In this document: in pieces, positions 1,645 to 22,071 of the stretch
Layout: each line of letters opens with the position of its first letter
How positions within the stretch are numbered: position 1 is the first letter of the stretch
Position numbers and translations under genes: made by a program
Virus record (IMG/VR): IMGVR_UViG_3300037189_014564
Coordinates: 1-32,246 of that record
Reading direction: 5' to 3' (one strand)
Origin: a virus
Length of the DNA stretch: 32,246 bases
Notes under the pieces: generated by a model
What the model saw: the letters and a program-made list of their open reading frames with translations, nothing else
Database searches by the model: none
What the model was told of the DNA's origin: nothing

Positions 1645-2128
1645 GGGACGACCCGTCGATCCGACTCGCGCAAACCGGGGGACGGGCAACCGACCGAAGC
1701 CCGGAGAAGCGAAGAAGGTTCTCGCGCCGTCGCCTATCGCCGTGCCGGTTCCCGTCGACGCGTACCCGCCTACAGACCTCATCCCGGAGGACGTTCACGG
1801 CGTCTGGCGGGCAGTCGTCGCTGACCTCGGTAAAGCGAACAATATGCGGGAGTCGTATATCCCGGCGGTCGAAGCGTATTGCCTCGCGGTCTACACCCAC
1901 GCGCAAGCTTCGGCGAACATCAAGCAATTCGGCGTCCTGGTCAAAGGCCCGAACGGCCCGATAGCTAATCCGCTGCTCAAAGTCCAGAAGGACGCGTCCG
2001 CGTCGATGCTCCGCTTCGCCGAGACCCTCGGTCTTACTCCCGCCGCCCGTATCCGTCTCGGGCTCATGGAGATTACCGGTATGTCTCTCCTCTCCACGCT
2101 CAACGCATCTATCGACGGGAAGAACTAA
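1637..2128 (+). CDS. terS: terminase small subunit (P27 family)
   Basis: 163 aa. The C-terminal half has the P27-type pattern: a helical segment with AVEAYCLAVYTHAQA, then VKGPNGPIANPLLKVQKDASASMLRFAETLGLTPAAR, and a LGLM end helix. Small terminase binds the packaging site on phage DNA and regulates the large subunit during genome packaging. The N-terminal 40 residues are Pro- and basic-rich and probably disordered. It starts inside the last codons of the Mom-like frame (8-base overlap), 17 bases after the tRNA, and its stop overlaps the terL start as TAATG. Position directly before terL supports the call. Confidence 0.85.
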   Translation: MAKGRPVDPTRANRGTGNRPKPGEAKKVLAPSPIAVPVPVDAYPPTDLIPEDVHGVWRAVVADLGKANNMRESYIPAVEAYCLAVYTHAQASANIKQFGVLVKGPNGPIANPLLKVQKDASASMLRFAETLGLTPAARIRLGLMEITGMSLLSTLNASIDGKN

Positions 2129-3576
2129 TGCCTCGCTACACGCAGGTCGGACTTGCTCGAGCCGAAAGAGTCCGTCGGTTCTCCGAACTTCACGTCCGGC
2201 ATATGAAAGATCGGTGGGCCGGCAAACCCTTCGACCTCGAACCCTTCCAATGGGAGAACATGATTCTCCCGGTCTACGGCTCGACCCTAAAAGGCAAACG
2301 CAAGTACAAGCGAGCTCTCTTCGGTCTGCCCCGTTGGTCGGGCAAGTCGGAGATTACCGCCATGCTCCACCTTTACCACCTCTACGGGGAACCGGTCTAC
2401 GGCGGCGAGCAATACGCGTTCGCTACGACGCGCCAACAGGCGGCGATTATCTTCGACACCGCAAAACGAATGATCAACGCCGACCCGCTCCTCCGGTCTA
2501 TGACGAAGGTCTACCGCAACGTAATCGAAGTCGTCGAGACTGGCGCGACGTTCCGGGCGCTCCCGTTCGACGCCGACACCTCGCAAGGCTTCCACCCGAG
2601 CTTTGCTTCGGGCGACGAAGTCCACGTTATGAAAGACCTCTCCATGGTCGAGAGCATGGTCACGGGTATGGTCGGTCGCGAGGAGGGACTCTTCGTCGCT
2701 ATCAGTACGGCGGGCGCTAGGCCCGGTAACGGCGTCGATCTCCTCCGCGAACAATGGGCGACCGACCCGGCTTCGTACATCTATTGGCAGGGAGCGAAAG
2801 AGACCGACGACCCGCACGACCCGGCGACGTGGCGCAAGGCGAACCCGGCGTCCTGGATTACGCCGGAGATGCTCCAATCGCAATACAACGCCGTCCCTCT
2901 GCCGGTCTTCCAGCGCCTTCACCTGAACATCACTCCGACCGACGGCGACAACGCTCGAGCGTTCAACCCGAGAGCTTGGGAAGCTTGCGACGCCGACCCC
3001 GTTATCGACCTCGAACGTCCTTGCGTTATCGGCGTCGACGCTGCTCCCCGTCGAGACAAGACCGCCGTCGTCCTCGACCAACGCGACGCCGACGGATTCC
3101 ACAACGTCAAAGCGTGGTCGTTCGACGCTGACCCCGAAGCTGGACTCCTCGACTTCGACGAGCTCAAGCACCTGCTCCGCGAACTCCACCAGACGTACAA
3201 CGTCTCGCGAATCATCGTCGACCCGGCGCACCTCTTCGCGATTATGGACGAGCTCGCCCGCGAAGGACTCCCGGTCGAAGACTTCCCGCAGAACGCGTCC
3301 CGAATGATTCCCGCCTCGATGAACCTCTACGACCTAATCCAAATGGGACGTATCCGGCACGGCAACGATCCGATGCTGACGAAGCACGTCCTCAACGCCG
3401 GAGCGAAAGAAATCCCGCCGTCCGGTTGGCGACTAACGAAGGTCTCTCCGCAGGAGAACATCGACGCGGCGGTCTCGCTCGCTATGGCGGTTCATATCGC
3501 CGAGTCGGAATGGGCGCTCGGAGGCCCGTCGTTCGCTTCGACCGGCGGAGTCTATTCGCTCGACGTAAGTATCTAG
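2128..3576 (+). CDS. terL: terminase large subunit
   Basis: 482 aa, close to the usual length. The N-terminal ATPase has a Walker A variant GLPRWSGKS (residues 66-74), a Walker B-like FASGDE (159-164) and a coupling-type ISTAG segment near 192. The C-terminal RNase H-like nuclease shows the acidic set D304 (IGVDAAP), D365 (IIVDPAH) and D446 (ENIDAA). The enzyme packages DNA into the prohead and cuts the concatemer. It follows the small subunit with a one-base overlap. After the stop come a CGTGACAC motif copy and a 56-base gap to the portal gene. Confidence 0.95.
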   Translation: MPRYTQVGLARAERVRRFSELHVRHMKDRWAGKPFDLEPFQWENMILPVYGSTLKGKRKYKRALFGLPRWSGKSEITAMLHLYHLYGEPVYGGEQYAFATTRQQAAIIFDTAKRMINADPLLRSMTKVYRNVIEVVETGATFRALPFDADTSQGFHPSFASGDEVHVMKDLSMVESMVTGMVGREEGLFVAISTAGARPGNGVDLLREQWATDPASYIYWQGAKETDDPHDPATWRKANPASWITPEMLQSQYNAVPLPVFQRLHLNITPTDGDNARAFNPRAWEACDADPVIDLERPCVIGVDAAPRRDKTAVVLDQRDADGFHNVKAWSFDADPEAGLLDFDELKHLLRELHQTYNVSRIIVDPAHLFAIMDELAREGLPVEDFPQNASRMIPASMNLYDLIQMGRIRHGNDPMLTKHVLNAGAKEIPPSGWRLTKVSPQENIDAAVSLAMAVHIAESEWALGGPSFASTGGVYSLDVSI

Positions 3577-3632: not shown

Positions 3633-5486
3633 GTGCAACTAAACCCCTTCGCCGCTCTGCGAGGTCGGAGCGAACAGCGTTCGCAAGACGCTATCGACGC
3701 TCTCGCTCAAGCGTTCTTCTACGGCGGAAACGTCTCCGCCTCCGGCGTGAGGGTAACTCCCGAGACCGCTCTCGCTTCCGTCGCCGTCGCTGCTTGCGTC
3801 GAAGTACGCGCCGAGACGTTCTCCGCTCTTCCTGGTGGAGTCTTCCGCAAGGAAGACCGTAAGCGCGTCCCGGTCTCCGACCACGACGTCTACCGTCTCC
3901 TCTTCGAACGCCCGAACGACCTTATGACCTCGGGCGAAGCACTGCGCTGGAAGCAGATTCGACAGGACGTGACCGGCAACGCCTACTTCCGCGTTATCTG
4001 GAAGCAGGGACGCCCGAGCGAGCTATGGCCCCTCTTCGGTACGAACCCGCAACTCCGCACCGCGAACGGCAAGGTCGCCTACCGCTACGAGGGAGACGAC
4101 GTAACCCCAAAGGGCGACTACTCCGCGCGAGACATTCTTCAGTTCAAAGGCCCGTTCCTAAAGAACCCGTTTGAAGCCGCGTCGCCAATCGACCTTATTC
4201 GCGACACTATCGGTCTCTCTATCGCGACCGAGCAGTTCTTCGGACGGTTCCTCAACAACGGTTCGCACTTCCCGACCTACCTCGAGACCGACAACACGCT
4301 AACCCCGGACGACGTCAAGGCGATTGCGAACTCGCTCTCGACGACCGCCGGAGTCCTTGGCGCGGGCAAGACCCGCATCTTCGACCGAGGAATCAAGGTC
4401 AAGCAGAACCAGATGAGCCTCAAGGACGCCGACCTTAGTGGACAGATGCGTTGGTATCTCGAGCAAATCTGTCGTATCTACCGCGTACCTCTTCCCCTGG
4501 TTCAGGACTGGACGCACGGAACCTACACGAACTCTGAACAGGCGGGACTCTGGTTCGCCCAGCACACGATTACGCCTATCGCCGTCGATACCGAGCGCGT
4601 CGTCCGCAAGCTCTTCATCTCCGGCGAAGAGAACCTCTACGTCAAATGGAACGTCGACGCGATTCTCCGAGGGGACTACACGGCTCGAACCGCCGGCTAT
4701 TCGACCCTTATCAACGCCGGCGTAATGAGCCCGAATGAGGCTCGCGCCTACGAAGACATGGACCCGTACGACGGCGGCGACGAATACCGCGTCCCGCTCA
4801 ACACGGCTCCGGCGGGCGAAGCTCTCGGCGGCGAAGCTCCGAAAGCCGCGAGCAACACGGTAAAAGCCGTCGAGGTCGACGCGCCCGCCGATCCGACAAT
4901 CGAGCCGGGAGATTCTGCCCAGCCTCGCTCGGTACTCCAACCCGTCATCGACGACGTCATCGACCGTATCCGTATTCGCGCGAAGCAGGACGCCGAACGT
5001 GGACGTCCCGCCGAGACTACCCGCGCGTGGGCTATCGAGCACGTTATCCCGCCGCTCGAGCGAGCTCTAACCCTCGCGGGCGAGACTGTCTCTGCGAGCG
5101 AGATTGTAGACGAAGCTCTCGGCGAGAACCGCGCGACCGGCTCGATTGACGTTCCTACCTATGTAAGCGAGAACGCTGCTCGCGGCGTAAAGCTCTACGA
5201 AGACGGTCGCGGAGGAGACGGACTCGTCGACGCGACTATCCGTGACGCCCGCGCTCTCGCTGACGGAAACGTGACCGAAGCGAAGGTTCGCAAGATAGGC
5301 CCGTGGATTGACCGTCACCTGGTCGACCTCGATGCGCCGAAGAATAGCGACCCTAAAGACCCCGGATATCCCGGAGCGGGCCTAGTCGCCATGCTCCTAT
5401 GGGGTGGCGGGTCAACTAAGGAATCGGCGACGCGAACCCGCGACTGGGCCTATGCCGAAGTCGAGCGCCTCGACAACGCAAACTAA
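3633..5486 (+). CDS. portal protein (HK97 type) with C-terminal extension
   Basis: 617 aa from a GTG start; HK97-type portals are usually 400-450 aa. Residues about 30-400 match the portal family: an ASVAVAACVEVRAETFSALP helix, LLFERPNDLMTSGEALRW, VTGNAYFRV, ILQFKGPFLKNPF, IGLSIATEQFF and the EQICRIYRVP helix followed by SEQAGLWF. The portal forms the dodecameric vertex through which DNA enters. After a low-complexity acidic linker (about 395-435) there is an extra domain of roughly 180 residues containing KNSDPKDPGYPGAGLVAMLLWGG near the C-terminus, a sequence type also seen attached to other phage head proteins. No strong ribosome binding site is visible before the GTG. Confidence 0.9.
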   Translation: MQLNPFAALRGRSEQRSQDAIDALAQAFFYGGNVSASGVRVTPETALASVAVAACVEVRAETFSALPGGVFRKEDRKRVPVSDHDVYRLLFERPNDLMTSGEALRWKQIRQDVTGNAYFRVIWKQGRPSELWPLFGTNPQLRTANGKVAYRYEGDDVTPKGDYSARDILQFKGPFLKNPFEAASPIDLIRDTIGLSIATEQFFGRFLNNGSHFPTYLETDNTLTPDDVKAIANSLSTTAGVLGAGKTRIFDRGIKVKQNQMSLKDADLSGQMRWYLEQICRIYRVPLPLVQDWTHGTYTNSEQAGLWFAQHTITPIAVDTERVVRKLFISGEENLYVKWNVDAILRGDYTARTAGYSTLINAGVMSPNEARAYEDMDPYDGGDEYRVPLNTAPAGEALGGEAPKAASNTVKAVEVDAPADPTIEPGDSAQPRSVLQPVIDDVIDRIRIRAKQDAERGRPAETTRAWAIEHVIPPLERALTLAGETVSASEIVDEALGENRATGSIDVPTYVSENAARGVKLYEDGRGGDGLVDATIRDARALADGNVTEAKVRKIGPWIDRHLVDLDAPKNSDPKDPGYPGAGLVAMLLWGGGSTKESATRTRDWAYAEVERLDNAN

Positions 5487-5512: not shown

Positions 5513-6832
5513 ATGAGCAAGGTCGAAATCCGCGCCGTAAGCGACGTAGCGTTCTCAATGGAGAACGGTCGTCCCCGTATCGACGCCCGCGCTATCCTCT
5601 TCGACTCGTGGAGCGTCGACCTCGGCGGCTTCCGCGAGCGCATCATGCCGGGAGCTGTGAATCTCGACGCCGACCTCGTCGCTCTATTCGACCACGACTC
5701 GAGCATGGTTCTCGGACGTGTGACCGCCGGAACTATGGACGTCCGACAGGACTCCTCCGGTGTCGCGTTTACGGCGTACCCGCCGGACACGACGTGGGCG
5801 AAAGACCTCTCCGTCTCAATGAAGCGCGGCGATATCCGAGGTTGTTCGTTCCGAATGATCGTCGACGAAGACGAGTGGTACACAAAGGACGGCTTCGTCT
5901 ACCGCGACGTAAAGTCCGCTCGCATCTCCGAGCTCACGATTACGTCCATGCCCGCCTACCCGGAGACGACCGCCGAAGCCCGTTCGAAGGTCGAGTCGGT
6001 TATCGAGAAGCGCGTCGGTCGCGTCCTCTCCGCATCGAACGAAAACGCTCTCCGCGAAGCTCTCGTCGCTCTCCAGAACGTCCTCTCACAGCTTGACCCC
6101 ACCGGAGCCGAGGAGGATTCGGCTAACCGCTCAACCTCTACCCCGAAGGTGGAACCTATGAAGTCCGAAACCCGCGCCGTCGCGCTCGAGCCCACAAGCA
6201 TCCCCGACCTGGTCGAAGAGCTGACCGAGACGTTCGCTGACGTCGTCTCCTTCTACCTTCGCGCACACGGAGCGCACTGGAACGTCGTAGGTCCGAACTT
6301 CTCCGAATACCACCAGCTCTTCGAAGAAATCTACGAAGACGTCTACAGCTCCGTCGATCCGCTCGCCGAGAACCTCCGCAAGCTTGGCTCGACCGCTCCG
6401 TTCCAGCTTCCCGCTCTCGTCGAGCTCCGCGACCTCACGGACGCGAACGTCGGACAGAACGCGACCGCTCTCGCACAGGACTTGTTTACCGCTAACGACG
6501 TCGTCATCGACTCGCTCGCCGACACGTTCGACTGCGCTATCGAAAACAACCAGCAGGGCCTTGCGAACTTCCTCGCCGAGCGCATCGATATGCACCAGAA
6601 ATGGAAGTGGCAACTCTCCGCCTCCCTCGGGTCTGAAGCCCTCGACCCGACCGTCGACCCAATGGACGCTAACGGCGTCGACCCGGACGACGCAGAAGAA
6701 AGCTCCGAACCGGAAAGCACAGGCGGCGCGCCCGTGAACATGGCTCGGTCATCGGTCGGCGCGACCGAAACCCCAACCCCGAAGCGCGGCTTCTCGCCAA
6801 TCTTCGGATTCATCCCTAACCGAAAGGACTAA
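5513..6832 (+). CDS. prohead protease (HK97/S78 type) fused to a Dps-like ferritin domain
   Basis: 439 aa. Residues about 1-165 are an HK97-type prohead protease: a DARAILFDSWS start, GFRERIMPGAV, catalytic His61 in ALFDHDSS, catalytic Ser112 in GCSFRM, and ELTITSMPAYPET. A linker follows, then from about residue 226 to 375 a Dps-like ferritin domain with HWNVVGPNF. The predicted ferroxidase residues H255, H267, D282 and E286 have spacing 12-15-4, the same as H51, H63, D78 and E82 in E. coli Dps. The C-terminal tail is acidic and Pro-rich. The protease cleaves the capsid delta domain during maturation. The position of the Dps domain is where a scaffold protein is often nested in lambda-like phages. 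Start preceded by CGTGACAC at fixed distance. Confidence 0.9.
   Translation: MSKVEIRAVSDVAFSMENGRPRIDARAILFDSWSVDLGGFRERIMPGAVNLDADLVALFDHDSSMVLGRVTAGTMDVRQDSSGVAFTAYPPDTTWAKDLSVSMKRGDIRGCSFRMIVDEDEWYTKDGFVYRDVKSARISELTITSMPAYPETTAEARSKVESVIEKRVGRVLSASNENALREALVALQNVLSQLDPTGAEEDSANRSTSTPKVEPMKSETRAVALEPTSIPDLVEELTETFADVVSFYLRAHGAHWNVVGPNFSEYHQLFEEIYEDVYSSVDPLAENLRKLGSTAPFQLPALVELRDLTDANVGQNATALAQDLFTANDVVIDSLADTFDCAIENNQQGLANFLAERIDMHQKWKWQLSASLGSEALDPTVDPMDANGVDPDDAEESSEPESTGGAPVNMARSSVGATETPTPKRGFSPIFGFIPNRKD
6158..6832 (+). CDS. possible nested Dps-like protein from an internal in-frame start
   Basis: An ATG at 6158 (Met216 of the fusion) is in frame and preceded by AAGGTGG ending 5 bases upstream, a usable ribosome binding site, exactly between protease and Dps domains. 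Initiation here would yield a free 224-residue Dps-like protein, parallel to the nested protease/scaffold arrangement of lambda C and Nu3. Dps proteins form 12-subunit shells that bind DNA and oxidise iron. Whether this start is used cannot be told from sequence alone. Confidence 0.45.
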   Translation: MKSETRAVALEPTSIPDLVEELTETFADVVSFYLRAHGAHWNVVGPNFSEYHQLFEEIYEDVYSSVDPLAENLRKLGSTAPFQLPALVELRDLTDANVGQNATALAQDLFTANDVVIDSLADTFDCAIENNQQGLANFLAERIDMHQKWKWQLSASLGSEALDPTVDPMDANGVDPDDAEESSEPESTGGAPVNMARSSVGATETPTPKRGFSPIFGFIPNRKD

Positions 6833-6836
6833 TGAC

Positions 6837-7979
6837 ATGGACTACCGTGCCATTGACCGTAAGGCAGAGGAGCTCCGCGCCGCCGGTGCCGAACTCGCTG
6901 CTAACACCGAGCTCGTTGCGGAAGACCGCGACAAGCTAATGAAGATCACGGGACAGCTCGAAGAGCTCGACCGTCTGCGTCTCGAGGCCCGCGACGCCGA
7001 GATCGCTGAAGCCCGCGCTATTGCCGAGGGTGGACGTGCTATCGGTGAGACGACCGAGGACGCTCGCGTATCGGACGCGTTCCGTTCATACATGAAGTCC
7101 GGCGCTGAAGACCGTGCCGTTCTCGCTATGACGGACGCAAACGGTGGCTACATCGTTCCCGAGCCCGTTCACGCTCCGCTGATTGAGAAGTTCCGCAAGG
7201 TCTCTCCTCTTCTCCAGAACGTGACCGTGTTCAACATGAGCGGCGACACCACCATGTACCTGCCCCGCAAGGACACGCACGGTGTTACCGCCAACGCAAC
7301 CGAGTCCGGTTCGCGTACCGAGCAGAGCGAGCCGACGTTCACCAACGCGTCGCTTCAGGCGTTCGACCTCTACACCGACCAGCGTTACAGCCAGCAGTTC
7401 CTGGACAGCGTCGACGGTGCAGAGACCATGGCTACCGAGTGGATTTATCAGGACTTCGCTGAGAAGTTCCAGAGCCAGCTCGCTCAGGGAGCCGGAACCG
7501 GTTCACAGCAGGCTGCTGGTATCTTCCTCGCTTCGTCCTCGTACAGCACCCAGCTTTCGGGCTCCGCTGCCGCGCTGACGAACACTTCGTTCCTGACCAC
7601 GTTCTTTGCGCTTCCGCAGAAGTTCCGTGCGACCGCGAAGTGGTACCTCTCGCCCGCAACCCTGTCGAGCATCATGGGATTCGCTTACCCGAACCTCAAC
7701 AACACCCCGCTCGTTCAGACCACCGCAGACGGTCACTTCACCATTCTTGGTAAGCCCGTTGTCGAGGTTGACGACGCTCCCGCTATCGGAGCTTCGAACT
7801 TCCCCGTCGCCTTCGGTGACCTGTCGCAGGGTTACGCCGCTGGAATCCACAAGAACGCCAGCATCCTGCGCGACCCCTACACCGCCGCTCCTCTGGTGCG
7901 TTACTACGGTCTCGCCCGCATGGGTGGAACCGTTTGGAACAAGGACGCAGTCATCCTGCTCAAGTCCAACAACGCCTAA
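6837..7979 (+). CDS. major capsid protein (HK97 fold)
   Basis: 380 aa. Residues about 1-75 are a charged coiled coil of the delta-domain type (runs of Ala/Glu/Arg), probably removed by the protease upstream. The mature part begins around MTDANGGYIVPEPV (about residue 98) and shows the HK97 capsid pattern: LIEKFRKVSPLLQNVTV, a TESGSRTEQSEPTF loop, then a C-terminal domain with YPNLNNTPLV, LGKPVVEVDDAP and VAFGDLSQGYAAGI. A strong ribosome binding site (GAAAGGA) precedes the ATG. Codon choice here leans more to CTG, GTT and GGT than its neighbours, as expected for a highly expressed gene. A long hairpin follows the stop. Confidence 0.95.
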   Translation: MDYRAIDRKAEELRAAGAELAANTELVAEDRDKLMKITGQLEELDRLRLEARDAEIAEARAIAEGGRAIGETTEDARVSDAFRSYMKSGAEDRAVLAMTDANGGYIVPEPVHAPLIEKFRKVSPLLQNVTVFNMSGDTTMYLPRKDTHGVTANATESGSRTEQSEPTFTNASLQAFDLYTDQRYSQQFLDSVDGAETMATEWIYQDFAEKFQSQLAQGAGTGSQQAAGIFLASSSYSTQLSGSAAALTNTSFLTTFFALPQKFRATAKWYLSPATLSSIMGFAYPNLNNTPLVQTTADGHFTILGKPVVEVDDAPAIGASNFPVAFGDLSQGYAAGIHKNASILRDPYTAAPLVRYYGLARMGGTVWNKDAVILLKSNNA

Positions 7980-7994
7980 CCCGGCAACCAAAGC

Positions 7995-8022
7995 GAAGGC
8001 CCGCCTTACAAGGCGGGCCTTC
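7995..8022 (+). terminator. hairpin after the capsid gene
   Basis: GAAGGCCCGCCTT pairs with AAGGCGGGCCTTC, giving a stem of about 12 base pairs with a very short loop. No T-tract follows, so it may be a weak terminator or an mRNA-stabilising hairpin that raises capsid expression relative to downstream genes. Confidence 0.6.
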
Positions 8023-8044
8023 GTGCTACCTTCGGGAGGGGAAT

Positions 8045-8242
8045 ATGAACACCGCGCTCGTCACAGCACTAAACGCAGAAGGCGGAGTCCTTCAGAAGCT
8101 CCGCATGATTGACGACCACCAGTCAATCTGGTCGACGATTATCGCTTGGCTCATGCTCGACGGAGTCGCGAAGCTGAAGATAGAGCGGTTCTCCGGCGAG
8201 GATATCTGCCAGCGGTGCTACGAAATCACGATGATCGACTAA
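8045..8242 (+). CDS. small hypothetical protein between capsid and connector genes
   Basis: 65 aa from the ATG preceded by GGGAGGGG, an excellent ribosome binding site; the frame stays open upstream into the capsid gene but that is a shadow. The protein is mostly helical with a hydrophobic centre (WSTIIAWLMLDG) and one CxxC (ICQRC). I do not recognise the family. It sits between the capsid hairpin and a strong terminator, so it is transcribed as a short isolated unit. A decoration or regulatory role would be speculation. Confidence 0.65.
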   Translation: MNTALVTALNAEGGVLQKLRMIDDHQSIWSTIIAWLMLDGVAKLKIERFSGEDICQRCYEITMID

Positions 8243-8264
8243 GCGGGGACTCGTCTCTTCCCTG

Positions 8265-8298
8265 GAAAGCCCGTCCGAACATGGCGGGCTTTCTTTTT
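8265..8298 (+). terminator. rho-independent terminator
   Basis: A nine-base-pair stem, GAAAGCCCG (8265-8273) with CGGGCTTTC (8285-8293), closes an 11-base loop and is followed by TTTTTG. The CGTGACAC motif begins only 4 bases after this T-tract, implying transcription restarts or is boosted there. Confidence 0.85.
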
Positions 8299-8345
8299 GT
8301 TCGTGACACCCGACCTAGTCTGAAGTCAACGAACTAGGAGGAACC

Positions 8346-8540
8346 TTGCGTATCCACTTCATCAGCTACGGCAACATTCAGACCGCGAGCGAAGACGGCG
8401 TAACCGCTTACGAATACGAGGCTGGCCTCACCGCTAACGTCCCCGAGGATATCGCCGCTCTCTTTATTGCGAACGGCGTCGCCGAACCCGCTAAGGCAGA
8501 ACGCGCCGTCAAGGACAAGGGCGAGACCGCTACAAAGTAA
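8346..8540 (+). CDS. small head-tail region protein, unknown function
   Basis: 64 aa from a TTG start with ribosome binding site TAGGAGG 5 bases upstream. The pattern of N-terminal beta strands, a helix PEDIAALFIANGVAEPAKAE and a charged Ala/Lys tail recalls the 74-aa protein at 9944, which has an equivalent VADLLISQGLATPKT helix and a tail. Both lie in the head-tail joining region, flanking the connector genes, and both follow a CGTGACAC motif. I cannot assign a function. Confidence 0.65.
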   Translation: MRIHFISYGNIQTASEDGVTAYEYEAGLTANVPEDIAALFIANGVAEPAKAERAVKDKGETATK

Positions 8541-8561
8541 CGACCCTCGGAAGGCGTAGCA

Positions 8562-9476
8562 ATGATTCGAGTCAAGCGTCAAGCAACGGGCTCATACACG
8601 TTCACGGAGAACGCCGTCGACGATGACGGTAACCTCGCGACCGTCGCCGGCCCGTTCACGGCGACCGTCTACGACGGCGCGGGAGTCCAGATTGCGACGC
8701 CTACCGCTACTTGTGCGAGCTCGGTCTTCTCCGCTACCGTCCCGGTCGCCACGCTGACGAAGCTCGACCAATACTCGATTGTCTGGCAGGGCAACGTCTC
8801 CGGCGTCGCTACCCAATGGACGACGACCGTCGACCTGGTCGGCGGCTACCTCTTCGAGATTGCCGACCTTCGCGCGTTCGACCGTGCCTTCTCGGACGCC
8901 GTAAAATACCCGACCGCGCAACTCCGCAAGATTCGGACGTGGGTCGAAGACGTTATCGAAGGCCCACGCGCTGCCCGCGTCGCGTTCGTCCCTCGAGGTC
9001 GTCGTCTTCTTATCGACGGTAACAGCCCCGATCTCACGCGCGGCTACAACCCGCTTATGTACGGCGCGGAGTATCGCGGACTTGTCGTCCCGAACTTCGA
9101 GCTCCGAACCGTGAACTCGGTAACGGTCAACGGAATCGACGTCGCTTCCGACCAGCTCGCGAATATCACGGTCGACGACAATATCATCTGGCGCTCGGCG
9201 GGCGTCCAATGGCCCGCTTGGCCCTTCGGTAAGAACAACATCAAGCTCCACTACGAACACGGTTACGACCGCGCTCCGGGAGCTATCACTCGCGCCGCTC
9301 TTCTCCTGGCTAGAGAGTACCTCGTCAAGTCCGATCTTCCCGGTCGCGCGACCGCGACTTCTATCGGCGACCAAATGTTCCGTCTGACTATCGCTGGACG
9401 CGACGGCGTGACCGGTATTCCGGACGTCGACGCCGCTATCGACCAGTTCGGACGCAAAGGCGTGGGAATCGGCTAA
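8562..9476 (+). CDS. head-to-tail adaptor with N-terminal Ig-like domain
   Basis: 304 aa. Residues about 1-95 look like a beta-sandwich (GSYTFTENAVDDDGN, VAGPFTATVYDGAG, WQGNVSG). Residues from about 100 carry the mostly helical connector pattern of gp6-like adaptors: AQLRKIRTWVEDVIE, then DGVTGIPDVDAAIDQFG at the end. The adaptor docks on the portal and forms the first ring of the neck. Position after the capsid gene supports this. The TAATG overlap with the next gene indicates coupling. The exact connector class is inferred. Confidence 0.7.
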   Translation: MIRVKRQATGSYTFTENAVDDDGNLATVAGPFTATVYDGAGVQIATPTATCASSVFSATVPVATLTKLDQYSIVWQGNVSGVATQWTTTVDLVGGYLFEIADLRAFDRAFSDAVKYPTAQLRKIRTWVEDVIEGPRAARVAFVPRGRRLLIDGNSPDLTRGYNPLMYGAEYRGLVVPNFELRTVNSVTVNGIDVASDQLANITVDDNIIWRSAGVQWPAWPFGKNNIKLHYEHGYDRAPGAITRAALLLAREYLVKSDLPGRATATSIGDQMFRLTIAGRDGVTGIPDVDAAIDQFGRKGVGIG

Positions 9477-9922
9477 TGAGCTTCGACACTAAAGCGTTCT
9501 CCGCGCAGGACGCGCTCGTCTCCGCTCTGCAAGCCAAGACCGAACTCTCGGCGTGGCGAATCGACTTCGGCATCCCGGCGGGCCGACCAGAGCCACAGCA
9601 CATCTGGGTAGACGAGCAAGTCTCGGACTGGACGCAGGACGCCTACACCACGGGTCTTGCGTCGAAGACGGAGACGTTCCGACTTGCGGTCTTCATCTAC
9701 GACAAGCAGACCGGTTCGACCGCGCAAGAAGTCCGCGACGAGATTCGAACCGCCGCCGGATATATCTCGACCGTTATCGGTTCGAACGCGTTTCTCGGAG
9801 GCGTCGTTCTCTTCGCGCAAATCGTCGCCGGAGACTACGAGGGAGCGTTCGCCGATCCCGAAGGTCGCGCTCGCGAGGGAGTTCTAAAGCTCACCGTCGA
9901 GTGCCAGTCGTTCCTCGCGTGA
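9476..9922 (+). CDS. tail terminator or neck protein
   Basis: 148 aa. The ends of the sequence follow the small neck/tail-terminator type: an N-terminal helix (QDALVSALQAKTEL), a strand FRLAVFIYDK, a helix with AQEVRDEIRTAAGYI and a final strand EGVLKLTVECQSFLA. Such proteins cap the tail tube or close the neck. Position between adaptor and major tail protein is the usual place. Its TGA stop lies in the next CGTGACAC motif. Confidence 0.65.
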   Translation: MSFDTKAFSAQDALVSALQAKTELSAWRIDFGIPAGRPEPQHIWVDEQVSDWTQDAYTTGLASKTETFRLAVFIYDKQTGSTAQEVRDEIRTAAGYISTVIGSNAFLGGVVLFAQIVAGDYEGAFADPEGRAREGVLKLTVECQSFLA

Positions 9923-9943
9923 CACTAAAAGGAGACTAGAGAT

Positions 9944-10168
9944 ATGGCAAATATCACCATTACCGAAGCCGTCCACGTAAGCATTACGGGAGCAGACGGC
10001 GAGCCCGCCGACCTTGACTTGAAGGCGGGAGACAACGACGTCGAGCAGGTCGTCGCTGACCTTCTCATCTCGCAGGGTCTGGCTACTCCTAAGACCTCCA
10101 AGGCTTCGGCAACGAAAGACGTTGTCGGCGACTCCAGCACACCAACCGAAACCCCGGAGGCTAAGTAA
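9944..10168 (+). CDS. small protein before the major tail gene, unknown function
   Basis: 74 aa. Strand-rich N-terminus (NITITEAVHVSITGADGEP), a helix VEQVVADLLISQGLA and a disordered Thr/Ser/Ala tail. It resembles the 64-aa protein at 8346 in layout. AAGGAG lies about 9 bases before the ATG, inside the spacer of a CGTGACAC motif. The stop overlaps the major tail start as TAATG, so a role in tail or head completion is possible. Confidence 0.65.
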   Translation: MANITITEAVHVSITGADGEPADLDLKAGDNDVEQVVADLLISQGLATPKTSKASATKDVVGDSSTPTETPEAK

Positions 10169-11145
10169 TGCCAATCCAAAAGATAACCGCTATCAGCGGA
10201 GTCGCGAAGCAGTCCGCTAAGGGAACTCTCGCTAGCCAACCGACTTTCGCTCACGGTCTCAAAGGCGGACGTCCCGTCTCGGTCGAGCCTTCGCAGAAGG
10301 CGCTCGACGTCACCGCTGGCAAGCGAGCCGCGTACAACGTCTACCGCGACAAGGCAGTAAACGGCGCAGACCTCCAGAGCCTCTCGTACATGAAGACCCT
10401 CGGTCTCTACCTGCTTGGCGCTCTCGGAACCGACACGGTTACCGGCACCGGGCCTTACGTCCACACCTTCGCGACCGGTGACCTACCCTACCTCTCGGTC
10501 TTCGCTAAGGGTCTCGACAGCACTATCGAAGCCGTCCGCGACTGTAAGGTCGACGAGCTCTCGCTCAAGTGGCAGAACTCCGACCCCGTCGAGCTTGGTG
10601 TAAAGGTTCTTGGAACCGTCTTCTCCTACCCGTCGACGTTTACTCCGACGAACGACGAGACCGGCTCCGAGTCGTTCCTCGTCCCCGTCGGTGGAACCTT
10701 CTCGGTCGACGTTCTCGGATCGACTCTCGTCTCGGCCCGCGTCGTCGGCGGCGAGCTCTCAATCAAGAACAACGTCGAAGCTATCGACCCGTCAGCGGCT
10801 ATCGAAGCGGACGACGTCTACGAGGGCGTTCAAGAGCACATGCTCAAGCTGACTATCGTCCCCGACGACCTTAGCCTCTTCCGTAAGACCGTCACGAACG
10901 GCGCATCGGGAACCTCGGTCGCGCTCGTCGCTCCGACCGGCTCGGTCTCGCTGACGTTCAAGGAGAACAACGGAACCGGACAGCTTGTCGTTACCGGTTC
11001 GAAGGTCGCGTTCTTGACCGCGTTCCCCGAGGCTGACCCGAAGGGTGGAGCTATCGAAATCGAGCTCTCCGGAATCGCAGTCATGCCCTCCGGTGGAACC
11101 GCTCCCCTGGTCTACGCGTTGACCAACGGACAGGCTACCTACTAA
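10168..11145 (+). CDS. major tail tube protein
   Basis: 325 aa, beta-rich and Gly/Thr/Ser-rich, with the tube-protein pattern in YLLGALGTDTVTGTGPYVHTFATGDLPYLSVFAKG and the C-terminal LSGIAVMPSGGTAPLVYALTNGQATY. Position directly before the frameshifted chaperone and tape measure genes is diagnostic for siphoviruses. It polymerises around the tape measure to make the tail tube. Confidence 0.85.
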   Translation: MPIQKITAISGVAKQSAKGTLASQPTFAHGLKGGRPVSVEPSQKALDVTAGKRAAYNVYRDKAVNGADLQSLSYMKTLGLYLLGALGTDTVTGTGPYVHTFATGDLPYLSVFAKGLDSTIEAVRDCKVDELSLKWQNSDPVELGVKVLGTVFSYPSTFTPTNDETGSESFLVPVGGTFSVDVLGSTLVSARVVGGELSIKNNVEAIDPSAAIEADDVYEGVQEHMLKLTIVPDDLSLFRKTVTNGASGTSVALVAPTGSVSLTFKENNGTGQLVVTGSKVAFLTAFPEADPKGGAIEIELSGIAVMPSGGTAPLVYALTNGQATY

Positions 11146-11172
11146 TCCAAAACACGAAAGAAGGTCGGGCAA

Positions 11173-11535
11173 GTGATCAAAGCAACAATCAACTTCCTTA
11201 GCGGAGTACCTAGCGTCGGCGTCACTATCGGCGTCGGTGAAGATATCAAGGCCCCGCGCGACTTGGCTGCTCTCGAAAAGCAAGGCTGGGTCGTCGACGA
11301 CGGCATGACAATTACCTACAAGGCGTGGCTCGCCGGTAAGCGTCAAGGCGATATCCAAAGCGACTCGAAGTTTGAGACGTGGATTGACGACGTCTCCGAG
11401 GTCGACGTGAAGCCTTCGCGTAAGCAAATCGAGCAAGCCGTCGCTCTCGGTTCTATGACCGCCGAGCAGGGCGAGGCTCTTCTTCAGATTATCGAGGACG
11501 AACCGGGGGAAGCCGACGCGCCGCCCGCCTTATAG
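11173..11535 (+). CDS. tail assembly chaperone, short (zero-frame) product
   Basis: 120 aa from a GTG start. The protein has an N-terminal strand region and an acidic helical C-terminus (KQIEQAVALGSMTAEQGEALLQIIEDE). Located between major tail and tape measure, it is the G-type chaperone that keeps the tape measure soluble during tail assembly. A weak AAGAAGG precedes the GTG. The zero frame stops at 11533-11535, just after a slippery site. Confidence 0.8.
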   Translation: MIKATINFLSGVPSVGVTIGVGEDIKAPRDLAALEKQGWVVDDGMTITYKAWLAGKRQGDIQSDSKFETWIDDVSEVDVKPSRKQIEQAVALGSMTAEQGEALLQIIEDEPGEADAPPAL

Positions 11536-11687
11536 CGCAGGTGGCGCTCGCGGCTGGCTTCGGTCTCGACCTCGAGCGTTGCGACCCGGAAGTCTTCGAT
11601 GCTCTCTATGAGCTCCTCGAAGAGCAGGGACGAGAACAGCAAAGGGCAAAGCTCGAGCAAGACCTAAGAGCAAAAATGGGACGGTAA
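11173..11687 (+). CDS. tail assembly chaperone, -1 frameshift (GT-type) product
   Basis: Reading shifts back one base at GGGGGAA and continues in the -1 frame to TAA at 11685-11687, adding 59 residues after residue 112 for about 171 in all. The added part (LIAQVALAAGFGLDLERC, then a Glu-rich helix ending AKMGR) is typical of the second chaperone segment, has no usable start of its own and fills an otherwise empty gap before the next gene. The ratio of short to long form matters for tail assembly in lambda. Confidence 0.8.
11505..11511 (+). promoter_or_regulatory. -1 ribosomal slippery site
   Basis: The heptamer GGGGGAA is read G GGG GAA in the zero frame (codons GGG 11506-11508, GAA 11509-11511). 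Re-pairing one base back allows GGG on GGG and partial pairing on GGA. It precedes the zero-frame stop by 22 bases. Confidence 0.75.
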
Positions 11688-11689
11688 CC

Positions 11690-12178
11690 ATGGCACGGCA
11701 AGGCACCAATATAGAAATCCGTGGTGTCAAAGAGACCATGGCGGCGCTAAAAGCGTTCGAGCCCGACCTGCTGAAGAGTCTTCGCAAAGATATCCGCCAC
11801 ACCCTCGAGAAGACGCGGGACGCGGCGCAAGGTAAGTATCCGAAAGGCGCTTACGGCGTCCGTATCTCGGCCCGTAAACTCCTTGGCTCCGTCGTCGCTA
11901 TGAGCGGCGGAGGGAGCGTCGCTTCCTCGTGGGAGAAGTCAGCTCCCGGCGTTCGAGCCGCTATCTTCGAGTTCGCCGGTAAAGTTCAGGGAGGAAAGAC
12001 TCCGCAAGCTTCGGGTCTTATCCGATCTCTAAACGCGCGTTACGGCTCTCCTGGACGCTTCCTCTGGTCGGCGTGGGACGAGCACGGTAAAGAGAGTCTC
12101 GAACATATCAAGGTATCGGTTCAGAACGCCGAGCGTGACCTCCAAGCTAAACTCGACTCGGCAGGAGAATCTTACTAA
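11690..12178 (+). CDS. tail completion-like protein (HK97 gp10-like)
   Basis: 162 aa. The N-terminal helical segment (GVKETMAALKAFEPDLLKSLRKDIRHTLEKTRDAAQ) followed by YPKGAYG, strand-rich middle and a GRFLWSAWDE segment resembles HK97 gp10-like tail-completion proteins. Those usually lie before the major tail gene; here it is between the chaperone and the tape measure, which is unusual but not unknown. It overlaps the tape measure start as TAATG. Moderate confidence. Confidence 0.55.
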   Translation: MARQGTNIEIRGVKETMAALKAFEPDLLKSLRKDIRHTLEKTRDAAQGKYPKGAYGVRISARKLLGSVVAMSGGGSVASSWEKSAPGVRAAIFEFAGKVQGGKTPQASGLIRSLNARYGSPGRFLWSAWDEHGKESLEHIKVSVQNAERDLQAKLDSAGESY

Positions 12179-14271
12179 TGGCAGTCAAAGTCACCGTTTA
12201 CGGCACCGCCGATATGCGTCAAATCGACCGCGCTCGGCAGACGCTAAACGGTCTCGAGAAGGAAGCTCGGCAGAACGCCACGGGATTCGGCGGAGCTATG
12301 GGCCGAGTCCAAAGCGCGGTCTCTTCGACCGGCGCGAAGATTGCTTCCTCGCTCGCTGCTCTCGGTCTCGGCTCGTACCTCAAGGAATCTCTCCACGCCG
12401 CCGCTATGGTCGAGACGTCGCAGGAACAGCTCAAGGCGGCGGTCGAAGCTGTCAGTCCTTACGTCCGTCAGTCCGAGGAGCATTGGAAGGACTACAACGA
12501 GACCGCGAAGGAAACGCTAAAGAAGACGTCCGACCTCTCCGCGTACTCGAAGGGACAGCTCCGCGACGCGCTCACCCAGCTAACGACGACGACCGGTAAA
12601 GCCGGTAAGTCCCTCGACCTCCTACAGGTAACAACCGACCTCGCTCGCCGTAAGAACCTCGACCTAAACCAAGCCGCCGTCCTGGTAGGTAAGGCGTATA
12701 ACGGCAACATTACGAGCCTCGCCCGTATCGGCGTCATGTTGCCAAAACACGCTTCCGGTCTTCAAGCTATCGACGCGCTCCAGAAGCGAGTCGCGGGATC
12801 GGCGGAAGCCTACGGTAATAGCGCCGCCGGTACGGAAGCAAAGTTCAACAACTCGCTAAAGGCTCTCCAAGTGACGATTGGTACGGCGCTCCTACCGGTC
12901 GCCGACAAGTTCATGACTTGGCTCACCGGAGTAATCAACGCGTTCCAGAATCTCCCCGGCCCGGTAAAGGACACCATTGTTGGAGTCGGCGCGGTCGCCG
13001 CTGCTGGTCTACTTCTCGCGCCGTTCCTCTCGTCGATCATCGCGGTCGGAAAAGCGTTTCAAATCGCGAAACTCGCGCAACTCGGTTGGAACGCCGCTCA
13101 ACTCGTCTTCAACGCTCTAGCGAACGCTAACCCTATCGGTCTGCTCATTACCGCTATCGGCGTCCTCGTGGTTGCCGTTACTTACTTCTTCACGAAGACG
13201 AAGCTCGGACAGCAAATCTGGCAGAACGTCGTAAACGCTATCGGCGCAGGGCTCAAATGGCTTGGCGACTTCTTCGGAAAAGTCTTCGGCGCTATCGGCA
13301 ACGCTATCGGCGCGGTCTTCCGTTGGGTCGGTCAAAACTGGCCCCTCATTCTCGGCATTATCACCGGCCCGATAGGGCTCGCAGTCGTCTTCATCGTTAC
13401 GCACTTCAAACAAGTGCAAGCGTTCCTCGCGACAGTATGGAACGCGATTGTCTCCGGAGTCCGAAACGCTATCGGCGCGGTCGTCGGATTCTTCCGCAAC
13501 CTCAACGAGACGATTCTCGGTCTCCTCGCCGGAGCCGGTAAATGGCTCCTCGACGTCGGACGTCAAATCGTCGCGGGACTATGGCAGGGAATCCAGAACG
13601 CCTGGAGCACGGTTACGAACGGCGTAAAGAACCTCGTCGACGGAGTCGTCGGCGGAGTAAAGAACATCCTCGGAATCCACTCGCCTTCGGCGGTCTTCGA
13701 CTCGATTGGTCAGAACACGGGCGCGGGTATGGCGAACGGTCTAAAGAAGTCGACTCCGAAGGTCGTCTCCGCTGCTAAGAAAATGGCAGACGAAACGACA
13801 AAGGCGCTCAAAGAAGCAACCGCTAACTTCGTCGGATCGTTCTCCCTCGGTCAGCTCGTAACGCCGGACGGCACCGTTACCGCGCAGTCGATGCTCGCTT
13901 CGGCGGGCTCGCAAGTAACCGCTATGCGTGACTTCGTCGCGCACGTCTCGTCGCTCCGCCGTAAAGGTCTCAACGGCGCGACTATCTCGGAGCTCCTCAA
14001 GGAAGGCCCGGTACAGGGTGGAGCTCAAGCGGCGGCTCTCGACTCTATGAGCGGTTCCGATCTCAAGACATTCAACGCGGACACGGCATCCGTAAACCGC
14101 TACGCCGGTCTCGCTGCTCAAATGACGGTCAACTCGAAGGCGACTCCGCACGTTACCGTCACTCCTGGAGCAGTCCAAGTAAATATCAACGGCAACGCCG
14201 ATAAGAACGACGTAAGCACGGCGGTCAATGACGCGCTTACGCAGTTCGCTAAAGAGTTGAGGTCGCAGTAA
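12178..14271 (+). CDS. tape measure protein
   Basis: 697 aa. N-terminal coiled coil (about 1-130), central segment with NFNNSLKALQVTIG-type pattern and long hydrophobic stretches (about residues 265-295, 320-345, 400-415), several repeated Ala/Gly-rich NAIGA units between 350 and 440, and a NILGIHSPSAVFDSIG motif near 495, typical of phage tape measures. It sets tail length; at about 0.15 nm per residue the tail would be near 100 nm. It is the longest gene in the window and overlaps both neighbours by a base. Confidence 0.9.
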   Translation: MAVKVTVYGTADMRQIDRARQTLNGLEKEARQNATGFGGAMGRVQSAVSSTGAKIASSLAALGLGSYLKESLHAAAMVETSQEQLKAAVEAVSPYVRQSEEHWKDYNETAKETLKKTSDLSAYSKGQLRDALTQLTTTTGKAGKSLDLLQVTTDLARRKNLDLNQAAVLVGKAYNGNITSLARIGVMLPKHASGLQAIDALQKRVAGSAEAYGNSAAGTEAKFNNSLKALQVTIGTALLPVADKFMTWLTGVINAFQNLPGPVKDTIVGVGAVAAAGLLLAPFLSSIIAVGKAFQIAKLAQLGWNAAQLVFNALANANPIGLLITAIGVLVVAVTYFFTKTKLGQQIWQNVVNAIGAGLKWLGDFFGKVFGAIGNAIGAVFRWVGQNWPLILGIITGPIGLAVVFIVTHFKQVQAFLATVWNAIVSGVRNAIGAVVGFFRNLNETILGLLAGAGKWLLDVGRQIVAGLWQGIQNAWSTVTNGVKNLVDGVVGGVKNILGIHSPSAVFDSIGQNTGAGMANGLKKSTPKVVSAAKKMADETTKALKEATANFVGSFSLGQLVTPDGTVTAQSMLASAGSQVTAMRDFVAHVSSLRRKGLNGATISELLKEGPVQGGAQAAALDSMSGSDLKTFNADTASVNRYAGLAAQMTVNSKATPHVTVTPGAVQVNINGNADKNDVSTAVNDALTQFAKELRSQ

Positions 14272-20617: not shown

Positions 20618-21742
20618 TCACTTCGTCGCGTCGACGTCCCGCTCGCTAACGCCAACGCCTGATAACGCCAAGAGTTCACCGAAGGCGTCCGCTGCTTTAC
20701 GATCCGCCGAACGCTTCGGTCGGAGGTAATGCGTATCGGTTATCGCGACCGTCGAGTGACCGAGCCTTCGGGAGACGACGACGATATCGACTCCCGCTTC
20801 GAGGAGGAGCGTCGCGTGGGTATGCCGGAGGTCGCGGATAGGGACGTAGCGGAGTTTTGCTATTCGAAGATTCTTTCGATAGAGCCGCGCGACCTCGGTC
20901 GGTCTCGCGTGACCTTCTGCTCCGTCTCCTGGTACGAGTGGGCCGATACCGCGCACGGGACGGAGCGCGTCGACTGCCCAATCCGGGAGACTTACGGTTC
21001 GGCTGCTCCGCTTCGACTTCGGCGGCTCAAACCATGATTCGGACTTACGTTCGTGAAGTCCACGCCGGACTTGGACGGTCGCTTCGGCGAGGTTTACGTC
21101 TGACCAAGTAAGCGCGTAGAGCTCGCACGGTCGAAGCCCAGTCGAGGTCGCGACGATAATAAGCGGCTCGAGCTTATGCCCGCGAAATGTTTTGAGGTAG
21201 GAGACGACCTCTTTAGCCGAGAGCGTCTCGAAGTCTCGGACGTCCGCGCTGGGAGGTTCGACGGCGAGCAGGGGATTCGACGTAATGAACCGCCAACGCA
21301 CGGCGCGATTGAGAGCGGTCGAGAAGGCCCGGTAGACGTGTCGAGCGGAGAGACCGCTCATCTTCTCGAGGAGCTCGTCGCGCCACCGGTCGAGGACGTA
21401 GGGCTCGAGCGCCGAGAGTTTCGTCTCTCCGAGCTTCGGGACGACGTGCCGGTCGAGCTTCCCTTCGTAACCGATCCGTGTCGCTTTGCGGACGCGCGTC
21501 TCGAGGAATGGCTTATAGACGTCCTCGATGAACTCTCGGACGCTCATATTCTCGCCGTGAGGTATCTGCCCGACTTGGAGGAGTAAACGCGCGAGAGCGC
21601 GTTCTGCGTCCGTCTCCGTGCCATGTACGGTCTTCGATAGGCGTCGAGGTTTACCGGTTATCGGGTCTCGCCCGGACGATATCTCTACGCGGGCGACTCC
21701 TTCTCGGAGCCACCGTATCGAACCGACGGGTCGACGGCTCAT
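20618..21742 (-). CDS. int: tyrosine site-specific integrase
   Basis: 374 aa using the ATG at 21742, which overlaps the repressor stop as ATGA; an ATG ten codons earlier is less likely. Residues about 1-60 look like an arm-binding domain (GSIRWLREGVARVEISSGRDPITGKPRR), 65-165 the SAM-like core-binding domain, 170-365 the catalytic domain. Catalytic residues visible: R204 (TGLRPCE), K242 or K244, R306 (DLRHTHAT), H329 (LGHS) and nucleophile Y339. The usual first His of HxxR is Arg303 (RDLR). It inserts the phage at the host tRNA-Cys. Oriented leftward toward attP, downstream of the repressor in one transcript. Confidence 0.95.
   Translation of the reverse strand: MSRRPVGSIRWLREGVARVEISSGRDPITGKPRRLSKTVHGTETDAERALARLLLQVGQIPHGENMSVREFIEDVYKPFLETRVRKATRIGYEGKLDRHVVPKLGETKLSALEPYVLDRWRDELLEKMSGLSARHVYRAFSTALNRAVRWRFITSNPLLAVEPPSADVRDFETLSAKEVVSYLKTFRGHKLEPLIIVATSTGLRPCELYALTWSDVNLAEATVQVRRGLHERKSESWFEPPKSKRSSRTVSLPDWAVDALRPVRGIGPLVPGDGAEGHARPTEVARLYRKNLRIAKLRYVPIRDLRHTHATLLLEAGVDIVVVSRRLGHSTVAITDTHYLRPKRSADRKAADAFGELLALSGVGVSERDVDATK
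20646..20669. repeat. candidate integrase arm sites, right pair
   Basis: CTAACGCC (20646-20653) and ATAACGCC (20662-20669), inside the last codons of the integrase gene. They repeat, in the same orientation, the pair at 20415-20432 across the attP core. Confidence 0.4.
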
Positions 21743-22071
21743 CGTGGCGCTCTCGTAAGTATGTCTTGCCACACGTCATGTCTCACGGACGCGCTGAAAT
21801 AAGTGAAGTTGACTTCTAGCGCCGCCATGACGCCGAGCAAGAAGTCAATATGTGGCATCTGTTCGCCGCGCTCAATTGCATAGATTGTGCGGTCGCTCAC
21901 GTCGACGCCGTACCGCGAGCGCAGGACGTCCGTTAGCTGCCCGACTCGGTCGAATCCCATTAGAACGCGCTGGGCTCGAAGGCGACGCCCGAACGCGACC
22001 TTATCAACAATGTTGTGAGGAGCTAGGTCAGTTTCTACTGCCTCTTCCGTGTTATCGACTTCGTTTGCCAT
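21739..22071 (-). CDS. immunity repressor, Xre-type helix-turn-helix
   Basis: 110 aa. A helix-turn-helix of the Cro/C1 (Xre) type spans about residues 25-95: FGRRLRAQRVLMGFDRVGQLTDVL, then VSDRTIYAIERGEQMPHIDFLLGVMAALEV. The N-terminus is acidic and the C-terminus short, with no LexA-like cleavage domain. A good AGAGGAGA ribosome binding site precedes the ATG. It is divergent from the excisionase-like gene and cotranscribed with the integrase, the standard place for a lysogeny repressor. Confidence 0.85.
   Translation of the reverse strand: MANEVDNTEEAVETDLAPHNIVDKVAFGRRLRAQRVLMGFDRVGQLTDVLRSRYGVDVSDRTIYAIERGEQMPHIDFLLGVMAALEVNFTYFSASVRHDVWQDILTRAPR

Follow-up and report, generated by a model that had tools for sequence, protein, structure and literature searches.

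A Dps-type miniferritin domain inserted in a phage prohead protease, and related fusions in other viral contigs

Known head proteases, phage Dps proteins and the fused ORF

The internal head proteins of T4 enter the prohead and the head protease then processes them, and lambda C-Nu3 supplies a nested in-frame protease-scaffold product. The locus described here is unlike these in that cargo and protease are one polypeptide, the cargo has a metalloenzyme fold, and the cleavage is a predicted one. The closest working analogy is offered by the ferritin-loaded encapsulins, which contain a ferritin-like cargo within an HK97-fold shell, but the present system lies outside that family: its cargo, a Dps rather than an encapsulated ferritin, is borne on the protease, in a phage that has a terminase, a portal and a protease. 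Membership of the encapsulin systems themselves was rejected on the context of the gene, a phage genome with a portal and a prohead protease.

Stand-alone Dps or ferritin proteins are encoded by gut phages (Benler 2021), Lactobacillus phages and Synechococcus phage S-SRM01. These share with the present case a phage-encoded protein of Dps type but are unfused, and the annotated neighbours in Aeromonas BUCT695, S-SRM01 and Bacteroides BS162P1 are not head genes. Protection of the infected cell has been the explanation given both for phage Dps (Benler 2021, PMC8008677) and for ferritin in freshwater phages (Kavagutti 2019, PMC6802176). Neither S78 proteases nor phage Dps proteins are new in kind, but their fusion is apparently undescribed: no account of a prohead protease-Dps fusion was found in the openly searchable literature. 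Four UniProt entries from uncultured Caudovirales phage (A0A6J5RFH1, A0A6J7WVS4, A0A6J7WPK9 and A0A6J5N5R9; 498-763 aa) match Dps and are probably fusions of the same kind; they carry only automatic names, either Dps or prohead protease.

The window (the whole stretch of viral DNA analysed, 32,246 nt, positions 1 to 32,246 of IMG/VR record IMGVR_UViG_3300037189_014564) includes the features listed in Table 1.

Table 1. Features of the fused protease ORF and its head-gene neighbours (positions are those of the window)
Feature	Position (nt)	Strand	Basis
TerL	2128..3576	+	gene order, relatives, reading of sequence; query for near relatives
Portal protein	3633..5486	+	Pfam PF04860
Portal C-terminal domain, residues 506-604, homologous to the X domain of other phages' fused proteases	5148..5444	+	homology
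HK97-family S78 prohead protease with Dps domain inserted in C-terminal tail, 439 aa (whole ORF)	5513..6832	+	open frame, Pfam, NCBIfam
Peptidase_S78 domain, residues 17-161	5561..5995	+	Pfam
Linker between protease and Dps, residues 194-229, low-confidence, probably disordered	6092..6199	+	full-length model
Shine-Dalgarno-like AAGGTGG, 5 nt before in-frame ATG 6158	6146..6152	+	sequence
Possible nested product M216-D439 (Dps and tail without protease)	6158..6832	+	inferred from start-site tests
Dps domain, residues 230-375, four helices and Dps-type short B-C loop helix	6200..6637	+	Pfam, structure searches, model
Ferroxidase ligand H255	6275..6277	+	alignments
Ferroxidase ligand H267	6311..6313	+	alignments
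E271, position of E. coli D67	6323..6325	+	alignment
Ferroxidase ligand D282	6356..6358	+	alignments
Ferroxidase ligand E286	6368..6370	+	alignments
Acidic linker after Dps, residues 376-411	6638..6745	+	alignment with other fusions
Native protease C-terminal tail, residues 412-439, RSSVGATETP...FGFIPNRKD	6746..6829	+	kept in Dps-less relatives
HK97-type major capsid protein	6837..7979	+	relatives, sequence

An earlier note on this DNA had described the ORF as a prohead protease fused to a Dps-like ferritin domain, and this is borne out by a single, stop-free frame of 439 residues and by the matches to Pfam, NCBIfam and solved Dps structures. The protease part matches Peptidase_S78 (PF04586; E = 2.5e-32, 112.7 bits against a gathering threshold of 21) and the HK97 prohead protease model TIGR01543 (69.5 bits, cut-off 59). 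His61 and Ser112, presumably its catalytic residues, are the same in all the near relatives aligned. The gene lies between those for the portal and an HK97-type capsid protein, and the order TerS-TerL-portal-protease-capsid is common to the relatives found with TerL. The first 93 or so residues of the capsid protein look delta-domain-like, ending in GAEDRAVLAMTDANGGYIVPE. Domain score, gene position and the N-terminal extension of the capsid protein are all as in the HK97 family; the difference lies in the Dps domain within the C-terminal tail, which the closest relatives do not have.

The last 100 or so residues of the portal protein (5148-5444) are homologous to a domain, here called X (phrog_2859), that other phages have at the N-terminus of their fused proteases, and this domain moves between portal and protease genes. 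A tRNA-Gly (anticodon tcc; 1546-1620) is located just 5' of terS and overlaps the end of an ORF called there. A putative integrase (20618-21772, minus strand) and a putative HTH regulator (21739-22071, minus strand), both read from sequence, suggest that the phage is temperate.

The Dps domain and its ferroxidase ligands

Ferritin similarity, on which the earlier note had made its reading depend, is evident from a Pfam match above gathering (PF00210, residues 235-373; E = 4.7e-15, 56.2 bits, threshold 24.5) and from a structure-sequence search that matched many solved Dps proteins, the best by sequence being Pseudomonas aeruginosa Dps PA0962 (8ff9; E = 8e-18). The cellular Dps equivalog cut-offs of NCBIfam were not reached (39 bits vs 170, 38 vs 114 and 35 vs 300). 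AlphaFold2, which the earlier note had proposed as a check, gave a complete Dps fold for the domain, with a mean pLDDT of 91.7 and the Dps helix pattern including the short B-C loop helix (helices at model residues 8-32, 38-53, 56-65, 74-80, 92-119 and 123-147). By VIA-align this model matched Listeria Dps with Z 20.4 and rmsd 1.9 over 148 residues, and its list of matches consisted almost wholly of Dps structures. In a full-length model the Dps part had a pLDDT of 93-98, flanked by low-confidence linkers (194-219 and 396-439); the S78 part, for which the alignment was shallow, mostly scored 35-69, and no claim made here rests on it.

The domain thus modelled resembles the Dps miniferritins of Listeria innocua, Bacillus brevis and P. 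aeruginosa (PA0962 / 8ff9) in fold, B-C loop helix and all four ferroxidase ligands. It differs in being fused to a phage protease, in belonging to a clade that occurs almost only in viral contigs, and in being strongly acidic (net charge -17) with no N-terminal lysine tail. Most fused relatives are alike in this respect, their Dps domains having net charges of -11 to -18 and no lysine-rich tail.

The 12-15-4 spacing of E. coli Dps, said in the earlier note to be reproduced by H255, H267, D282 and E286, is correct as read from the translation. No substitution of any of the four ligands occurs among 23 Dps domains (below 85% identity) or, wherever the position could be aligned, among 26 fused and 10 unfused ones (below 90%). 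In an 18-row alignment, 34 of 151 columns were invariant and included all four ligand columns, which had been set beforehand (chance p about 0.002). Because of this invariance across relatives, the spacing is taken to be more than a chance pattern. At the position of E. coli D67 the window and seven of ten unfused copies have an acidic residue, but most fused relatives have N, Q, L, A or G there, and their ferroxidase rate may therefore be reduced. Ferroxidase chemistry is likely to have been kept in the fused domains, and may have been tuned.

Relatives with and without the Dps domain

A search with TerL returned eight contigs at 71-83% TerL identity to the window. Six of these, among which some pairs are nearly identical, have a protease that matches that of the window and ends in the same C-terminal tail (RSSVGATETP...GFGFIPNRKE) but carries no Dps; where the start is clear, these proteins are 291-295 aa long. 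In a seventh (L094) a different ORF, ClpP-like by reading, takes the place of the protease, and the contig of the eighth (L093) ends short of that place. Alignment shows the Dps block as an insertion in the linker between protease and tail. Since near relatives have the same protease and tail without Dps, the domain is an insertion that is dispensable for assembly in those phages. Relocation of Dps in the relatives that lack it was considered and rejected, as a profile search found none elsewhere in eight records, possibly fragments (L087, L090, L092, L094, L131, L132, L159 and L161), four of them belonging to the TerL set. The GC3 of the insert (0.78-0.80) is close to that of the rest of the genome (0.72-0.77), whereas the Dps domains of relatives average 0.42, and the reading frame runs on unbroken across the insert and into the native tail. 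Both findings make an assembly chimera unlikely, and misassembly was rejected as the source of the fusion.

The fusion itself is not unique to this phage. A full-length single-sequence search (exact 8-mers) gave one unfused Dps only, and the relatives were found by alignment and by TerL and MCP searches. A profile of the Dps domain had at least 553 matching stretches in viral contigs, and 80 loci were kept; in most of these a portal gene is followed by an ORF with Dps at its N-terminus and S78 at its C-terminus, and then by a capsid gene. Across the fetched viral loci, some of which are pieces of one contig, 113 ORFs located between the portal and capsid genes contain both domains (26 distinct at under 90% identity). 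The 112 besides that of the window are mostly in the reverse, Dps-then-S78 order, and it is the S78-then-Dps order that is, among all fusions found, peculiar to the window record. Even so, DPMDANGVDPDDAEE in the post-Dps linker of the window matches DPVDAQGVDEDDAEE in that of other fusions, and a tree places the Dps domain of the window together with all fused domains (94/86), to the exclusion of the free phage Dps copies, although several outgroup branches are long and deep placement is unsure. Two domain orders with homologous Dps and post-Dps linker, joined in one tree, would be expected if attachment to the protease matters.

The bias of sampling by Dps was avoided by using the capsid protein as an anchor. 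This Dps-blind sample comprised 59 complete protease ORFs, of which 48 carried Dps (23 of 29 after removal of similar ones) and 11 did not. The fusions showed the architectures X-Dps-Z-S78, Dps-S78, X-Dps-S78 and Dps-Z-S78. In those Dps-less ORFs that were inspected (L131, 3399-4931; L130; L157, 719-2131; L147, 3035-4942; L158), the slot of Dps is filled by another conserved segment (LHSVMAADAAMDAAQ...), probably helical, which is covered by no Pfam or PHROG match. Hva1_TUDOR (PF11160) occurs within the prohead proteases of L023, L010, L131 and L147, between S78 and either Dps or the alternative domain. Two phages have a free Dps gene directly 3' of the portal gene (L002, 5953-6462; L078, 3274-3747), with an open frame of 1988 residues or more (6472-12435) coming next in L002 and a related large frame downstream in L078. 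Given the varied content of the slot, the homology of the X domain and the free Dps after the portal, the unit behaves as an exchangeable block.

Most relatives with a fused protease also have, 3' of the capsid gene, a conserved gene (IGMVNDGSIN...; 4161-4877 in L007) that is glycosyltransferase-like by reading. Among other Dps matches in the phage collection, L003 has no head genes beside its Dps ORF and L006 is unfused; L004 and L005 may be cellular sequence, to judge from a reading of their ORFs. When 84,980 bacterial and archaeal genomes were scanned with strict patterns, there were four matches. Three were MAG contigs (one showing the portal-fusion-capsid order, the other two short), and the fourth was a bacterial Dps at 36%. 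The Dps clade of the fusions looks essentially viral, at the resolution of patterns that would miss more distant cellular Dps.

Candidate internal starts and the proposed role of the fused domain

The earlier note had placed the domain where a scaffold is often nested. This gains some support from the Shine-Dalgarno sequence of M216 (ATG 6158), which ranks first of 92 internal in-frame ATGs in the main ORFs of the window and is stronger than those of most gene starts; as in lambda C/Nu3, a strong internal in-frame start would give a putative C-terminal product. In the relatives, the Met just before Dps is preceded by AAGGAG- or GAGGAG-like sites. Mean anti-SD energies were -9.7 kcal/mol for the pre-Dps Met and -7.4 kcal/mol for the Met before S78, both best-of-candidate values that favour the test groups. 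Gene starts averaged -7.2 and a further 633 internal ATGs -2.2. Synonymous recodings were used as a control because the acidic linkers encode purine-rich codons. Compared with these, the observed pre-Dps sites were stronger on average (mean z -1.7), though not in all groups, which is moderate support; the sequences are related and hence not independent. Three of 35 fusions have no pre-Dps Met. The amino acids encoded at the site vary (SEEGD, AKENN, PKETR, RKERN) while the ribosome-binding site is kept; the sites could be working nested starts or remnants of separate genes, and this conservation favours their use. With a strong ribosome-binding site and an in-frame ATG before Dps in most fusions, part-length products are likely. 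In the reverse-order fusions the pre-Dps start still yields Dps joined to S78.

The explanation favoured here, over scaffolding or DNA condensation, and given an even chance of being right, is that a ferroxidase-active Dps miniferritin enters the head on the prohead protease and stays there with the packaged DNA. The S78 part would co-assemble inside the prohead, perhaps by way of the conserved C-terminal tail, and the Dps part would assemble into, or join, a dodecameric shell inside it, probably together with free Dps subunits started at M216. When the protease fires it would remove the N-terminal domain of the capsid protein and cut its own linkers, and the folded shell, too large for the capsid pores, would remain with the DNA. 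By oxidising and storing Fe(II), using peroxide, it could limit Fenton damage to that DNA within the virion or shortly after ejection. Of the roles suggested in the earlier note, protection against iron and peroxide is the one that still stands, as a proposal. Delivery into the prohead is favoured by the steady association with the head protease, found in two domain orders, and the empty-site relatives fit a cargo rather than a scaffold. E-x-R-A-like motifs occur at the protease N-terminus, after the protease domain, before Dps and in the presumed cleavage region of the capsid protein, with E-T-R-A-V at residues 219-223 of the pre-Dps linker resembling E-D-R-A-V in the last of these. With such motifs the same protease could set Dps free, but this is a lead only, as so short a motif could occur by chance.

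A less probable though serious alternative is that Dps acts in the host cytoplasm, largely as free protein from the internal start, lowering Fenton damage there, and that the fusion serves mainly for late-gene expression. The start at 6158 would indeed give free Dps, and the unfused genes of other phages have been interpreted as host-cell protection (PMC8008677; for ferritin, PMC6802176). Left unexplained, however, are the repeated placement within the protease ORF in both orders and the free Dps genes right after the portal, and in the reverse-order fusions the internal start does not separate Dps from S78.

Rather unlikely is an assembly platform, in which Dps would serve as an oligomerisation core, fixing protease number or helping the prohead to assemble, and iron chemistry would be incidental. 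Dps does occupy the scaffold/protease slot, with a nested product reminiscent of lambda C/Nu3, and another small, probably helical domain fills that slot in Dps-less relatives. The ferroxidase ligands, however, are invariant while other positions vary, and the scaffold role proposed in the earlier note is disfavoured: the closest relatives assemble without Dps, the slot holds a different domain elsewhere, and the capsid proteins have their own helical N-terminal extension.

Some Dps proteins bind DNA, and PHROG 3636 is labelled 'DNA binding protein'. Binding and compaction of the packaged DNA, also raised in the earlier note, is nevertheless very improbable in view of the acidic charge and missing lysine tail of the window domain and most fused relatives (see above); one of the structural matches, an Agrobacterium Dps, is titled as protecting DNA without binding. 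An artefact or a decaying, functionless insertion is the least credible reading, for although the S78-Dps order is known from one record only, frame, GC3 and ligands are kept and the fetched loci contain the 112 further fused ORFs.

Head delivery of a ferroxidase-active Dps remains the preferred reading for the window, and the related fusions in many uncultured phages suggest that an iron- and peroxide-detoxifying shell may be loaded into their heads. More tentatively, and with somewhat less than an even chance, many uncultured tailed phages may carry a dodecameric, ferroxidase-active miniferritin in the virion, brought there by a modular head-protease polyprotein with exchanged payloads (Dps, the small alternative domain, Tudor-like and others) and detoxifying iron and peroxide. 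The occurrence of the same gene with and without Dps provides a natural comparison that makes the question testable. There is a real chance that the fusion will reveal iron chemistry borne by the virion. If Dps does ride on the head protease, then the object protected may be the DNA of the virion and not the infected cell, head proteases would be carriers of exchangeable internal enzymes, and these phages would possess a counterpart to the ferritin-loaded encapsulins, with the HK97 shell fold common to both.
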